Of a DNA stretch of 64,000 nt, positions 6,121 to 45,676 are shown piece by piece. The DNA is taken from the NCBI RefSeq assembly GCF_023195885.1, contig NZ_JALPKO010000004.1:1-64000 (forward strand). The letters run 5' to 3'. Both the position numbers and the translations under genes were made by a program. Below the pieces are notes generated by a model. The model made no database searches and was not told the origin of the DNA. It was given only the letters and a program-made list of their open reading frames with translations. This DNA is from Methylonatrum kenyense (GTDB lineage Bacteria > Pseudomonadota > Gammaproteobacteria > Nitrococcales > Aquisalimonadaceae). Within the stretch, counting starts at the first letter, position 1; every line of letters begins with the position of its first letter.

Positions 6121-6176
6121 TAAGGAAACGCTGATCTATTCGGGCGCAGACGCGCGAATAGATCAGCGTTTCCCTA
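6121..6176. repeat. Family A repeat A2 (short palindromic form)
   Basis: Two perfect 19-base inverted arms, GGAAACGCTGATCTATTCG (6124-6142) and its complement (6155-6173), flank a 12-base loop GGCGCAGACGCG. The outer TAA/TTA bases nearly extend the stem. This is the two ends of family A brought together with the middle missing. It lies in the divergent gap between the DUF4124 gene and the telA operon, ending 26 bases before the chosen start of the next gene, so it probably falls in that promoter or leader. Confidence 0.85.
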
Positions 6177-10566: not shown

Positions 10567-10848
10567 ATGGCGAAGGCAAGCGCACGACACATTCTGGTGG
10601 CTGATGAGGCCCTGTGTCAGGAACTGAAGACCCGTATCCAGAATGGCGAAGGGTTCTCCACCCTGGCGCAGGAATATTCCAGTTGCCCCTCGGGGCGCGC
10701 TGGCGGTGATCTGGGAAGCTTTGGCCCGGGTCAGATGGTGCGGGAATTCGACGAGGTTGTGTTCTCGGCGCCGCTGAACCAGGTCCAGGGTCCGGTGAAG
10801 ACCCAGTTTGGCTATCATCTGCTGGAAGTCACCGAGCGCAGCGACTGA
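10567..10848 (+). CDS. ppiC: Parvulin-type peptidyl-prolyl cis-trans isomerase (PpiC)
   Basis: A 93-residue single-domain rotamase without a signal peptide, so cytoplasmic. The parvulin fold is clear: ARHILVADEALCQEL, GEGFSTLAQEYSSCPSGRAGGDLG and FGPGQMVREFDEVVFSA, then FGYHLLEVTER. Length matches E. coli PpiC (93 residues). It stands alone between fragment A4 in its leader and long copy A5 seven bases behind its stop. Confidence 0.93.
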   Translation: MAKASARHILVADEALCQELKTRIQNGEGFSTLAQEYSSCPSGRAGGDLGSFGPGQMVREFDEVVFSAPLNQVQGPVKTQFGYHLLEVTERSD

Positions 10849-10854
10849 AGGCTT

Positions 10855-11265
10855 AGGGAAACACTGATTTATTCGCACGCCTGCGTTGGAGTCCGCATTT
10901 TTCTCCGAGGCAAGGCGCGGTGCGCCGCGTGAGGGTGATTCCCTCGTCCAGCGCCGCAACGCCGCAGGGCAGTGAATCCGGCGGTCACCCGCGGGGCTCG
11001 GGCCGTTCTTCCGCCTGGCGGTGTCGCAGGCCACCCCGGGTAGCACCACTACCCAAGGTGACCTGCTCCTGGCCAGCCGCAAGAACGGCACACGAGCGCG
11101 GCAGCGTGCGACGGTGCATGCTTGCCTCTGGTCGGGCCGGTTTTGGCCCCTGGCTGTGTTGCGCTACCGGCCCGGTAGCTACGGCTACCGAACCGGCACC
11201 GCGCCTTGCCAGATGCCCAAAACCGGTCTCGGGCGCAGATGCGGGAATAAATCAGCGTTTCCCTA
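10855..11265. repeat. Family A repeat A5 (long form, about 410 bp)
   Basis: Terminal inverted repeats TAGGGAAACACTGATTTATTC and GAATAAATCAGCGTTTCCCTA bound a GC-rich, non-coding middle. Internal blocks include GGCAAGGCGCGGTGCGCCGC, GTGATTCCCTCGTCCAGCGC, GTAGCACCACTACCC, GCGTGCGACGGTGCATGCTT and AAAACCGGTCTCGGGCGCAG. The same blocks occur in inverted orientation in A8. No frame with start signals runs through it. It fills the 420-base gap between ppiC and the palindrome behind imuB. Confidence 0.85.
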
Positions 11266-11318
11266 GGCGGGAACCGACCAGTGTCCGCCGATCGGCGGAC
11301 ACTGGTCGGTTCCCGCCT
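11265..11318. repeat. Perfect 54 bp palindrome behind imuB
   Basis: The arms (27 bases each, AGGCGGGAACCGACCAGTGT-CCGCCGA and its exact complement) meet with no loop at 11291/11292. The palindrome ends three bases from the imuB stop (11322) and its first bases coincide with the right terminus of family A copy A5. No T-tract follows on either strand, so a simple intrinsic terminator is not obvious. It could be a cruciform, a very strong RNA hairpin or a protein-binding site. Confidence 0.9.
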
Positions 11319-11321
11319 GTT

Positions 11322-12752
11322 TCAGCCGAAGTAGCCATGCAGAAACCAGCGCCCGGGGTGTCGCCGATCCCGGAAGACCCATAGCCGGCTGCCGTCCGCA
11401 GCCTGTGCCTGATAATAGTCGCGGCTGATGTCCTGGCCGTCCCACCAGCCTCCTTCGATGCGCTCCGGTCCCTGGCAGAGCTGCAGCCGGCCACGGTGTT
11501 CGGGCAGGCCGTCGCGGCATGCCAGTGGTTTCGGCTCGGGCAACAGCCAGAGTGGTCTGTGCGGGCTGGCGGTCTGCTGTCTGTCGCCGGCGGGTGCCGG
11601 CATGTGCCAGGCCCGTTCGGGGCGGTGATCCGGAGCCGTGCCGAGACCACTGATAGCGGTGTCGCCCAGGCGCGCACCCAGACGTTCGGTCAACTGCTGC
11701 CACGACATCCGGGCGGCTTGTCCCTGCTGCAGCAAATCGGCGGGCCGTGCGGCCAGTGGCAGCAGATGCCGGGCCTCCAGGATCAGGCCGGTCACCGGGG
11801 CCTTTAGCGGCGTGCGCTGCAGCCGCTCGTTTGCCACGGCAAGCAGGCGTTCAACATCACGACTCGGGTCCTGCAGACCAAGCAGCAGCAGGGTTGCGGC
11901 ATGATCTTCGTGCTGCAATTGCAGGTGCACCCGCTGCACGCCGGCCTGCAGGCTGATCAGCAATGCCCGCAGATCCTGCAGCAGACGTTGCAGGGCGAAG
12001 AGCACGGCGGTGCTGTCATGCGCGGCTGCCGGCAGGGCCAGTTCGCCGTGAAAAACCGGTCGTGGGCGGTGACTCGGGCGCGGGTCCGGCCGTTCGCCCA
12101 GGGCGCGTTGCAGTTGCTCACTCAGTGTTCCGCCCAGCCGTCGGCCCAGTTCCGCAGACGGCAGTCGCAGGCAGTCACCCAGGGTTTGCAGCCCCAGTCC
12201 GCTCAATGCCCTGGTCTGCTCGGGCGTGAGTTCCAGTACCTGGATGGGCAATGCGGCCAGTTGTTCTGCCAGTGCGGCACGTTGTGTCAGCAGGGTGCCG
12301 CCCCCGGCCCGGCAGAACAGACCGGCCGCGGCGGCGGTGGGTGCGACTGCGGTTTGCCAGTGCAGCCCAAGTTGCTGCAAATGCGCATTCAGCTGCTGCT
12401 GCAGGCCGGTCATGCCACCGAACAGTCGCAAGCTGCCGCCGATCTCCAGCACCAGTTCCAGGGGCGGTTGACGGCTGACCCAGCCGCTGAACTGCAACAG
12501 ACCGTCGGCCAGCCGGCGCAGACTGTCCTGTTCCAGATGCGGTTTGCGTTGCACCAGTTGCAGCTCCGGGCACAGGCTGCGTGCCTGGGCCGGGCGCATG
12601 CCGGGGCATACGCCTTCGGCGGCGGCCGTGCGACTGACGGCGAGCAGGCGCTGTCCGTCGATTACCGCCATCAGGGGCTCGTCGGCACAGCCGCGGCGGA
12701 ACACGTCCAGCGGCAGCTCGGGAAAGCGCAGTGCCTGCCAGAGCAGGGCCAT
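11322..12752 (-). CDS. imuB: ImuB, Y-family DNA polymerase-like mutagenesis protein
   Basis: A 476-residue protein related to DinB polymerases but catalytically inactive in known members. It acts as the hub of the ImuA-ImuB-DnaE2 mutasome in SOS translesion synthesis. The N-terminus FPELPLDVFRR and LELVLEIGGSLRLFGG correspond to polymerase motifs; the acidic SxDE motif is replaced by GGS. AVAPTAAAAGLFCRAG and the little-finger-like segment with MSWQQLTERLGARLG follow. The C-terminus RDYYQAQAADGSRLWVFRD is typical of ImuB. It follows imuA at a 20-base gap. No dnaE2 is present in this window. Confidence 0.93.
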   Translation of the reverse strand: MALLWQALRFPELPLDVFRRGCADEPLMAVIDGQRLLAVSRTAAAEGVCPGMRPAQARSLCPELQLVQRKPHLEQDSLRRLADGLLQFSGWVSRQPPLELVLEIGGSLRLFGGMTGLQQQLNAHLQQLGLHWQTAVAPTAAAAGLFCRAGGGTLLTQRAALAEQLAALPIQVLELTPEQTRALSGLGLQTLGDCLRLPSAELGRRLGGTLSEQLQRALGERPDPRPSHRPRPVFHGELALPAAAHDSTAVLFALQRLLQDLRALLISLQAGVQRVHLQLQHEDHAATLLLLGLQDPSRDVERLLAVANERLQRTPLKAPVTGLILEARHLLPLAARPADLLQQGQAARMSWQQLTERLGARLGDTAISGLGTAPDHRPERAWHMPAPAGDRQQTASPHRPLWLLPEPKPLACRDGLPEHRGRLQLCQGPERIEGGWWDGQDISRDYYQAQAADGSRLWVFRDRRHPGRWFLHGYFG

Positions 12753-12772: not shown

Positions 12773-13582
12773 TCAGTGCATATGGTCCAACTGCCGTTCG
12801 CCATCCAGCGGCAATTGCAACTGCGGTACACGGCTGTGCGTGCCGCGGGGTTGCGGATACAGTGGCCGGACGATCGCCTTGCGGGCTGGTGTCGCCTCCG
12901 GCGCCGGCCCCCGCCGGCGAACAGCAGACGCTGTGCGGGATACCGGCAGGGCCCGCACCCGGGGAGTGCCCAGGTCAAGTTGCAGCGATTGTGGGCCCAC
13001 GCTGCCGCGGCACTTGATCAGGTCCAGCTGGTTCCCGCCATCCGTCTCGCGTCGCAGCCGGACCCGCAGGGTGGCCGGGGAGGGTTGCGCCGCATCGGCC
13101 TCGCTGCGGAACAAAAAGCCCATGCAGTCACCGGTTTCGGCCGCCAGTTGCAGTCGGCGCAGGGCGCTCGCATCCGCCTGGCCGGGCCAGCAGATCACCG
13201 CGGCGCAGGTGCCTGCCCGCAAGGCCTGTTCCACGGCCCACAGGATGTCGACATGGCGCTGCGGGCGGACCAGCAGGACCCGGGACAAATCAATGCCGCG
13301 TGCCGCCAGTGCCGGCGCATAGGGGATATGCGGCGGCGCAATCAGTGCAATCCAGCGGTTGTTCCGGCTCAGACGGGCCAGCGCCGGCATCAGCAACTGC
13401 AGTTCGCCAATGCCCTGTTGTGCATGGATCACCTCGGTCAGTGCCGCCCGGGGCCAACCGCCACCAGGCAGCCGGGTATCCAGCTCGGCAAAGCCGGTGG
13501 CGGTGGCCGCAGTGCCGGCGGGTGCCGAGGTGGCGCGCCAGATATGGGGTTCGCGTAGCAGCTCGTGCAGGGCATCAGTCAT
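12773..13582 (-). CDS. imuA: ImuA, translesion synthesis-associated protein
   Basis: A 269-residue RecA/SulA-like protein of the SOS mutasome. The core GFAELDTRLPGGGWPRAALTEV is the family opening. The nucleotide-loop region HAQQGIGELQLL is degenerate, and LRVRLRRETDGGNQLDL is in the expected place. The C-terminus reads QLQLPLDGERQLDHMH and contains a QLPLD segment resembling a beta-clamp-binding pentapeptide. A ribosome site GAGG lies before the ATG. No separate SOS box is seen in the 38 bases between lexA and imuA, so expression is expected from the lexA promoter. Confidence 0.9.
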   Translation of the reverse strand: MTDALHELLREPHIWRATSAPAGTAATATGFAELDTRLPGGGWPRAALTEVIHAQQGIGELQLLMPALARLSRNNRWIALIAPPHIPYAPALAARGIDLSRVLLVRPQRHVDILWAVEQALRAGTCAAVICWPGQADASALRRLQLAAETGDCMGFLFRSEADAAQPSPATLRVRLRRETDGGNQLDLIKCRGSVGPQSLQLDLGTPRVRALPVSRTASAVRRRGPAPEATPARKAIVRPLYPQPRGTHSRVPQLQLPLDGERQLDHMH

Positions 13583-13620: not shown

Positions 13621-14244
13621 TTACAACGGTGTGCCGTTGCGGATCAGGCCGACGCCCAGTCCCTCGATGTCGAGCGGGTCCCGGCGCAGATCCAGTTCCA
13701 GGGTCCGGAACTCCGGGTTCTCCGCCTGCAGCCAGACCCGGTGCCCATCGCGGCGGAAGCGCTTCACGGTGACCTCGTCCTGCAGTCGGGCGACCACGAT
13801 CTGGCCGTTGCGGGCCTCGCGGGTGCGGTGCACTGCCAGCAGGTCGCCATCGAGGATGCCGGCGTCCCGCATGCTCATGCCGCGTACCGCCAGCAGGTAG
13901 TCAGCCCGGGGCGAGAACATGTCGGCGGCGGCATGACAATGTCCGCGCACGTGTTCCTCGGCCAGTATCGGGCTACCGGCCGCGACCTGACCGATAATGG
14001 GAAGACCCTGGTGGGATTCTGTCACCGGTTCCTCGTCCAGCAGGCGTATGCCGCGGGAGGAGCCCGGCGTGAGTTGCAATGCGCCCTTGCGCTCCAGGGC
14101 ACGCAGGTGGCTTTCCGCCGCATTGGGTGAGCGAAACCCCAGTGCCCGGTTGATATCGGCGCGGGTCGGGGGGTAGCCGGTTTCGGTGATGAAACGCCGA
14201 ATCAGGTCCAGAATTTCCTGCTGGCGTGTCGTCAGCGATTGCAT
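13621..14244 (-). CDS. lexA: LexA repressor
   Basis: A 207-residue SOS repressor. The N-terminal winged helix ([15 protein letters not shown] ... [32 protein letters not shown]) binds the operator. The self-cleavage site is A89-G90 (QVAAGSP), with catalytic S124 (GMSM) and K161 (VTVKRF). The start ATG 14244 has GGAGA seven bases upstream; the frame stays open far upstream, antisense to relA, but that part has no homology. First gene of lexA-imuA-imuB, controlled by the SOS boxes just upstream. Confidence 0.96.
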
Positions 14245-14281
14245 GGCTGGTCTCCATCGGAGGAATGCTGAAGCGCGATGA

Positions 14282-23177: not shown

Positions 23178-25115
23178 TTGAATGATATGGCCAAGAACCT
23201 GATTCTGTGGGTGATCATCGCCGTTGTGCTGATGTCGGTCTTCAGTAATTTCCAGGATCGCCAGACGACGACCGACAAGATCACCTACTCCGAATTCCTT
23301 GCCGATGTGGAACGCGGCAATGTGAGCGAGGTGACCCTGCAGGGTCAGGAAATCCGCGGCACCACAACCGGTGGCAATAGCTTCCGCACGATGAGTCCGG
23401 AGACGGACAACCGTGCCCTGATCGGCACCCTGCTGGATAACAGTGTCAGCATTGATGCGGAGGAGGCCGAGGGCCGCAGCATGCTGCTGCAGATCCTGAT
23501 CTCCTGGACACCCTTCCTGCTGCTGATTGCCGTCTGGATCTATTTCATGCGCCAGATGCAGGGCGGCGGCGGTGGTCGCGGTGCAATGTCCTTCGGCAAG
23601 AGCAAGGCCAAGCTCATGACGGAGGAACAGGTCAAGGTCACGTTCAACGACGTCGCCGGCGTCGAGGAGGCCAAGGAAGAGGTTTCCGAGCTGGTCGATT
23701 TCCTGCGCGACCCGACCAAGTTCCAGCGCCTTGGTGGGCATATCCCCCGCGGCGTCTTGATGGTTGGCTCGCCGGGTACCGGCAAAACCTTGCTGGCGAA
23801 AGCGATCGCCGGCGAGGCCAAGGTGCCGTTCTTCAGCATCTCGGGTTCCGACTTCGTCGAGATGTTTGTCGGCGTGGGCGCCTCGCGTGTGCGCGACATG
23901 TTCGCCCAGGCCAAGAAGCATGCGCCTTGCATCATCTTCATTGACGAGATCGACGCGGTCGGCCGACAGCGCGGCGCGGGCCTGGGTGGCGGCCACGACG
24001 AGCGCGAGCAGACCCTGAACCAGCTGCTGGTGGAAATGGACGGCTTCGAGGGCAGCGAGGGCATCATCGTGATCGCCGCCACCAACCGCCCCGACGTGCT
24101 GGACCCGGCACTGCTGCGCCCTGGCCGCTTCGACCGTCAGGTGGTGGTGCCGCTGCCGGATGTGCGTGGCCGCGAACAGATTCTCAAGGTACACATGAGC
24201 AAGCTGCCGCTGGCCCGGGATGTCGATCCGTTCATTCTTGCCCGCGGCTGCCCCGGTTTCTCGGGTGCCGATCTGGCCAACCTGGCCAACGAGGCCGCCC
24301 TATTCGCGGCGCGCAGCAATAAGCGCGAAGTGGATATGGAGGACTTCGAGCGGGCCAAGGACAAGATCATGATGGGCTCCGAGCGCCGTTCCATGGTGAT
24401 GAACGAGGATGACAAGCGCCTGACCGCCTACCATGAGTCCGGTCACGCGATCGTCGGCCGGATCACTCCGGAGCACGACCCGGTGCACAAGGTCACGATC
24501 ATCCCGCGCGGGCGGGCCCTTGGTGTCACCATGTTCCTGCCGGAAGAGGACCGGGTCAGCTACTCCAAGCAGCGACTCAACAGCATGATTACCTCGCTGT
24601 TCGGTGGCCGTATCGCGGAGGAAGTGATCTACGGCGACGACAAGGTGACCACCGGTGCCTCGAATGACATCGAGCGGGCCACGCAGATTGCCCGCAACAT
24701 GGTGACCAAGTGGGGGCTTTCCGATCGGATGGGCCCGCTGGCCTACAGCGAGGATGAGGGCGAGGTGTTTCTTGGCCATTCCATGGCCAAGCAGAAACAG
24801 ATCTCGGATGAGACCGCCCATGCCATCGAGAACGAGATCCGTCGCATCATCGACGACAACTATGCGCGGGCGAAGCAGATCATCACGGACAACATGGACA
24901 AAATGCATGCCATGGCCGATGCCCTGATGAAGTACGAGACCATCGACAAGAGCCAGATCGACGACATCATGGCGGGTCGTCCGGTGGGGCCGCCACGCGG
25001 CTGGAACGACGGTCAGGGCAGCTCCGGCAGCAGCGGTGATAACCGCGAGGCCAGGCCTGCCGATGACAGGCGGGAAGGCGAGGGTGGCATCGGTTCGCCG
25101 GCCGGCGAACACTAG
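23178..25115 (+). CDS. ftsH: ATP-dependent zinc metalloprotease FtsH
   Basis: A 645-residue membrane AAA+ protease that degrades misassembled membrane proteins and regulators. TM1 is about 7-23, a periplasmic domain follows, and TM2 is about 104-124. Walker A is GSPGTGKT (197-204, Ser where Pro is usual), Walker B IIFIDE and the arginine-finger region RPGRFDR. The protease site is HESGH (419-423; usual HEAGH). A TTG start is supported by GAGGTGA six bases upstream; ATG 23187 is the alternative. The TAG stop is the first three bases of family A copy A7. Confidence 0.97.
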
Positions 25116-44419: not shown

Positions 44420-44964
44420 AGGGAAGCACTGATTTATTCCCGCGTCTGCGCCCGAGACCGGTTTTGGTCATCTGGCAAGGCGCGGTGCCGGTTCGGTAGC
44501 CGTAGCTACCGGGCCGGTGGCGCAACGCAGCCAGGGGCCAAAACCGGCCGGGCCACTGGCAAGCATGCGCCGTCGCACGCCGCCGCGCTCTTGTGCCGTT
44601 CTTTCGACTGGCCAGGAGCAGGTCGCCTCGGGTAGTGGTGCTACCCGGGGTGGCCTGCGACACCGCCAGGCGGGAGAACGGCTCGAGCCCTGCGGGTGAC
44701 CGCCGGATTCACCGCCCTGCGGCGTTGCGGCGCTGGACGAGGGAATCACCCTCGCGCGGCGTACCGCGCCTTGCAGGTCAGCGAATCCGACGGTCACGCG
44801 GTGGCGTGCGACGGTGCATGCTTGCCTCCGGTTGGGCCGCATTTTTCCCGACTGCTGCGTTGCGCTGCTTGACCGCAGAACGACTGCGGCGCTTCACAGC
44901 GCGCCTTGCCTCGGAAAAAATGCGGACTCCAACGCAGGCGTGCGAATAAATCAGTGTTTCCCTA
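44420..44964. repeat. Family A repeat A8 (long form, about 545 bp)
   Basis: Ends AGGGAAGCACTGATTTATTC and GAATAAATCAGTGTTTCCCTA. It carries the same internal blocks as A5 in inverted order, including AGTGGTGCTACCCGGGGTGG and GCGTGCGACGGTGCATGCTT. The last block also occurs a second time in inverted form inside A8 (about 44558-44580). It has an additional segment near the right end, GCGCGCCTTGCCTCGGAAAA, shared with A9. It fills the 670-base gap 44348-45017; no credible gene lies in it. Confidence 0.85.
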
Positions 44965-45560: not shown

Positions 45561-45637
45561 TGCGGGGTGGAGCAGTCTGGCAGCTCGTCGGGCTCATAAC
45601 CCGAAGGTCGCAGGTTCAAATCCTGCCCCCGCTACCA
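45561..45637 (+). tRNA. Initiator tRNA-fMet (CAT)
   Basis: A 77-base tRNA with encoded CCA. The anticodon arm TCGGG-CTCATAA-CCCGA has the three G-C pairs diagnostic of initiators. The first base pair of the acceptor is unpaired, as needed for formylation, but here it is T1 opposite T72 rather than the C1-A72 of E. coli. The T arm is GCAGG-TTCAAAT-CCTGC. Its position before rimP-nusA matches E. coli metY. Confidence 0.97.
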
Positions 45638-45646
45638 GTTACAATA

Positions 45647-45676
45647 ACAACGGGCAGCCCAAGGGCTGCCCGTTGT
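45647..45676 (+). terminator. Hairpin/terminator after tRNA-fMet
   Basis: A very long stem ACAACGGGCAGCCC / GGGCTGCCCGTTGT with almost no loop begins 10 bases after the CCA end. It is followed by CGTTTCTG, a weak T-tract. Confidence 0.7.

Follow-up and report, generated by a model that had tools for sequence, protein, structure and literature searches.

A perfect 54 bp loopless palindrome at the imuB 3' end of Methylonatrum kenyense, with a possible origin by fold-back copying

Palindrome at the 3' end of imuB

In a 64,000-nt stretch of the Methylonatrum kenyense genome (hereafter the window; the source genome, G000, comprises 2.95 Mb in 29 contigs), we found that a perfect palindrome of 54 bp lies directly beyond the end of imuB. 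Most likely, it belongs to an ordinary class, in which it stands out by its length, and its origin is plausibly mutational, with no function demonstrated. Our preferred reading, to which we give a probability of roughly 0.55, is that of a hairpin particular to this lineage, located in the spacer 3' of imuB, that arose by a template switch, has been kept, and now serves as a stem-loop at the end of the lexA-imuA-imuB mRNA, with the adjoining repeat element being a separate entity.

The 11265-11318 segment is identical to its own reverse complement at 54 of 54 bases (27 + 27, with a spacer of zero), and the symmetry ends abruptly, as the next outward pair is a mismatched T/G. Three bases (GTT) separate it from the imuB stop codon (11322-11324, minus strand), and hence the sequence confirms the exact loopless palindrome that an earlier note had placed at this distance from the stop. 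Statistically, the palindrome is real: given the window composition, 2.6e-11 loopless palindromes with arms of at least 27 bases are expected in 64 kb, and 1.2e-9 in the 2.95 Mb genome. The runner-up in the window has arms of 9, and no longer perfect inverted repeat (loop of 0-10) is present in the 1,074,130 bases of G000 scanned. Moreover, the 54 bp sequence occurs once in its own genome.

As for the surroundings (Table 1), the order is the ppiC-type gene (plus strand), the 408 bp element, the palindrome, GTT, and the imuB stop (minus strand), with imuB being last in the minus-strand run of lexA, imuA, and imuB. Rfam matches in the 64-kb window were limited to two tRNAs. Separately, a hairpin with 14-base arms and a 2-base loop (45647-45676) was seen shortly past a tRNA-Met gene (45561-45637).

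Table 1. Features at and around the palindrome (positions in the window)
Feature	Position	Strand	Remarks
Perfect loopless palindrome, 54 bp	11265-11318	.	27-base arms; as single strand, 25-pair stem with GATC loop
imuB, Y-family polymerase-like (Pfam IMS)	11322-12752	-	Palindrome begins 3 bases beyond stop
imuA (NCBIfam NF033429, above cut-off)	12773-13582	-	Upstream of imuB, same strand
lexA (TIGR00498, above cut-off)	13621-14268 (start approximate)	-	Profile match
ppiC-type peptidylprolyl isomerase gene	10567-10848	+	Convergent with imuB
Repeat-element copy (family A), 408 bp	10856-11263	.	Inverted ends GGGAAACRCTGATTTATTC
CTAG at the right boundary of the element	11263-11266	.	Shares its final two bases with the start of the palindrome; at the left boundary, TTAG at 10853-10856

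Comparison with relatives

We scanned 44 imuB loci, of which three were from G000, 29 from the whole genomes of relatives, and the other 12 from named contigs. At the imuB 3' end, all 41 relative loci lack perfect inverted repeats with arms of at least 12; seven of them do carry such repeats, but elsewhere. Neither arm of the palindrome (up to 3 mismatches) was found in a search of 53 further genomes of the order, all of other species, or at any second place in G000, and therefore a joint and recent origin of the two arms is probable. Among named relatives, the closest imuB (86% identity) belongs to the metagenome-assembled genome of Ectothiorhodospiraceae bacterium CSBr16_16.

Within the genus, G001 retains ppiC and imuB in this order, and the 36 bp between them contain neither the element nor the palindrome. 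G002 (locus L174, G002:C100:8600-11400) also has no palindrome, and here three transporter-like genes (ATPase, permease, and binding protein) lie between ppiC and imuB. Since the binding-protein gene has only remote matches in G000 and G001, the ppiC-imuB junction has been rearranged within the genus, and the gene content suggests loss or rearrangement. When an ancestral half was sought by local alignment of the arms with four relative spacers, the scores were reached by 36% to 92% of shuffles. On this basis, we rejected a shared ancestry of the arms with the ppiC-imuB spacers of G001, G002, and G003, and, together with the lack of arm matches in relatives, these shuffle-level alignments indicate that the palindrome is recent or fast-changing, with no visible ancestor. 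A mobile or viral origin was likewise rejected, as there were no matches in plasmids or phages and the exact 24-base arm is absent from viral contigs. An integron attC site was set aside on account of the perfect symmetry and the lack of extrahelical bases.

Other loopless palindromes in the family

Perfect loopless palindromes with arms of at least 15 number four in 1,074,130 bases of G000, one in 400,000 of G004, and one in 200,000 of G010, with none in 200,000 bases of G006, 119,643 of G002, or 83,899 of G001. At about 0.3 per 100 kb, the class is therefore an ordinary one in the family, and no member in the sample is longer than the imuB case. Of the six, two of 30 bp each share a GTTCCACGTGGAAC core (L086 873-902 on G000:C12, and L134 6468-6497 on G004:C1), which we take to resemble parS, the ParB site of chromosome partition, and another (L076) sits within an element copy.

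A further case, perfect, loopless, and 34 bp in length, is centered on the start codon of cobQ (L087 7656-7689 on G000:C12, with the cobQ start near 277,660). Its right arm consists of the first codons of cobQ, and its left arm lies upstream, where G002 has unrelated sequence, which suggests for this case a relative with one arm but not the other. Judged by this arrangement, the palindrome looks like an inverted copy of the coding arm. Though a single example in which the copying is itself inferred, it would be the strongest evidence from within this genome for palindromes made by fold-back copying.

Proposed origin by template switching

For the imuB palindrome, a template switch is the most likely origin. 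A nascent or broken strand would have folded over and used one arm as the template for the other, and this event would have either made the palindrome or made an existing one perfect. Arm identity over the whole length and abrupt ends, as looked for in a template-switch product, are both found at 11265-11318, and the exact symmetry with no spacer, along with the palindrome-free spacers of G001 and G002, supports such a switch. Against this, no ancestral half was found in the spacers of G001, G002, and G003, and the copying event is thus inferred. In the most likely order of events, the element, as a separate and common mobile repeat, would have inserted beside the base of the hairpin, at a site of the CTAG/TTAG type.

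Precedent exists in Escherichia coli, where template switching that perfects palindromes is established (PMC7202029). Similarly, Ladoukakis and Eyre-Walker proposed that template switching enriches inverted repeats in bacterial genomes (as reported in PMC4060949). As proposed for the imuB palindrome, the quasipalindrome-associated template-switch mutations in the lacZ QP reporters of E. coli yield perfect inverted repeats through intrastrand copying and need no sequence conservation, whereas these reporters perfect a pre-existing palindrome (PMC7202029), and the present case has 27-base arms and no known precursor half.

The adjoining repeat element

The element beside the palindrome is one of several family copies in the window (others include 44421-44962 and 6123-6174), the main length being near 272 bp and the minimal form 52 bp. 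Element ends of family A number 217 in G000 (up to 2 mismatches), and an 18-base version of the end (up to 1 mismatch) is found 97 times in G001, 161 times in G002, and four times in G003. In the 1.07 Mb of G000 scanned, TA precedes 97 of 145 ends (up to 4 mismatches). Among 39 paired elements, the common lengths are 270-274 and 52 bp, and YTAR-like 4-mers are found at the left of 22 and the right of 28, being identical on both sides in 16. Going by these features, the element looks like a miniature transposable element, and the YTAR-bounded pairs look like ordinary insertion with target duplication. We presume that the YTAR targets point to an IS5-type driver for the family.

The copy near imuB terminates in GTTTCCC, and its usual bounding TA (11264-11265) overlaps the palindrome by one base; the two are thus adjoined, as had been claimed, with this base shared. 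Elsewhere in the window (25093-25115), an 18 bp loopless palindrome, GTTCGCCGGCCGGCGAAC, was observed just before another element end, at which the stop codon of an open reading frame ending at 25115 is completed by the first base of the element. In G013 (L014), an element-end remnant lies directly at the imuB stop.

Alternative explanations

Since a palindrome of this kind adjoins just one of the 145 sampled element ends, that at imuB (the next-longest neighbors having arms of 12), we rejected it as a part of the family A element, and it is independent of this family. The same count bears on the earlier proposal of recent hairpin copying at the element edge, according to which a hairpin intermediate was copied during insertion or excision. 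The one-base overlap favors such an element product, whereas its occurrence at 1 of 145 ends, the likeness of the bounding YTAR-like 4-mers to ordinary insertion with target duplication, and a 13-base element-end remnant in G002, which lacks a palindrome although it lies 41 bp from the imuB stop, all argue against it. We consider it unlikely; hairpin-templated copying stands as the best available origin, but the tie to the element edge does not. A true intrinsic terminator, possibly bidirectional and shared by imuB and the convergent ppiC gene, is likewise rather unlikely, although the folding would suit it. Either strand of the palindrome folds into a stem of 25 pairs closed by a 4-nt loop; as RNA, the 106-nt region gives z values of -9.0 and -10.8 for the two strands, and the 54-mer as DNA gives -11.9. 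As in Rho-independent terminators, a stable GC-rich stem-loop with a 4-nt loop is located just past a stop codon between convergent genes, but the stem of 25-27 pairs is far beyond the usual length and has no U-rich tract behind it on the imuB strand, where AGGGAAACGC follows and T is absent from the initial 10 bases; on the plus strand, the stem is followed by GTTTCAG. In addition, a terminator scan of the window did not list the palindrome, G000 does have stems with T-runs at other sites, and none of the relative imuB loci scanned conserves it. In favor of the terminator, another element copy (L094) adjoins a terminator-like stem with a T-run, and so hairpins that adjoin elements can be gene-end hairpins. 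Moreover, hairpins with arms of at least 9 occur within 80 bp of 7 of the 145 element ends versus 1.6 expected from random positions, although the latter are mostly coding, the palindrome is itself among the seven, and some stretches were chosen for element ends, so that this excess mostly reflects elements landing in gene-end spacers. Since there is no U-tract on the imuB strand and no conservation, the functional terminator that had been suggested is unsupported in its canonical form, while it may act as a 3'-end hairpin.

A binding site for a dimeric or oligomeric protein is highly improbable. The two other long palindromes with the presumably parS-like core imply that long palindromes can be protein sites, but the imuB one is single-copy in G000 and absent from relatives, and we know of no protein site that reaches 54 bp of perfect symmetry. 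With a comparable imuB 3'-end palindrome in 0 of 41 relative loci, the binding site of the SOS cassette mooted in the earlier note finds no support. We also regard an assembly or library artefact (a foldback chimera) as very unlikely: it would fit with two loopless palindromes of G000 having no counterpart in relatives, but the contig is 274 kb long, the site lies 11 kb from its end, and the genes to either side are intact; moreover, foldback artefacts are normally rare reads rather than consensus.

Persistence of the palindrome

Under the template-switch reading, the palindrome may have been kept owing to its site between convergent genes and to a genome in which no SbcD-type subunit of the hairpin nuclease was found. 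The SbcD profile TIGR00619 has no match in G000, G001, and G002, and exceeds the cut-off in one of 54 genomes of the order; in control genomes, it does so in 8 of 14, with some match in 13 of 14. As for the SbcC profile TIGR00618, there is no match in G000 and none over the cut-off in 14 genomes, which says little because only 1 of 14 controls passes. The single above-cut-off genome of the order, together with the incomplete recovery in controls by the SbcD profile, weakens SbcD loss as a genus-specific cause. SbcD-type genes are scarce in the order, yet the sampled relatives show no palindrome this long, which counts against the preferred reading, and the missing SbcD match is permissive only for persistence.

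In vitro, the lower limit for hairpin cleavage by SbcCD is given as palindromes of 20-36 bp, with natural palindromes being generally below it (PMC4245961), and so SbcCD, in genomes that have it, might endanger a palindrome of 54 bp. The chromosomal palindromes studied in E. coli are likewise perfect and able to form DNA hairpins at replication, but are 246-480 bp in length (PMC4245961). The earlier description of palindromes of such size as unstable and seldom retained holds only in part.

Biological implications

If the palindrome has a role, that of a hairpin slowing decay from the transcript end is the likeliest, and it may have none. Most likely, the palindrome would form a highly stable stem-loop where the lexA-imuA-imuB mRNA ends, which would slow decay and perhaps weakly aid termination. 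A broader claim, that long loopless palindromes are generated time and again by fold-back copying and then retained in this lineage, in which SbcD is undetected (imuB and cobQ), the imuB one being a new stability element of the SOS mutagenesis operon, is in our estimate distinctly doubtful. The palindrome reveals no new system. Rather, if its proposed origin is true, it would be a natural snapshot of the birth of a palindrome in a bacterial chromosome, 54 bp long, above the reported in vitro lower limit for SbcCD cleavage, and in a genome where no SbcD was found, and would offer a small model for the origin and persistence of such hairpins.
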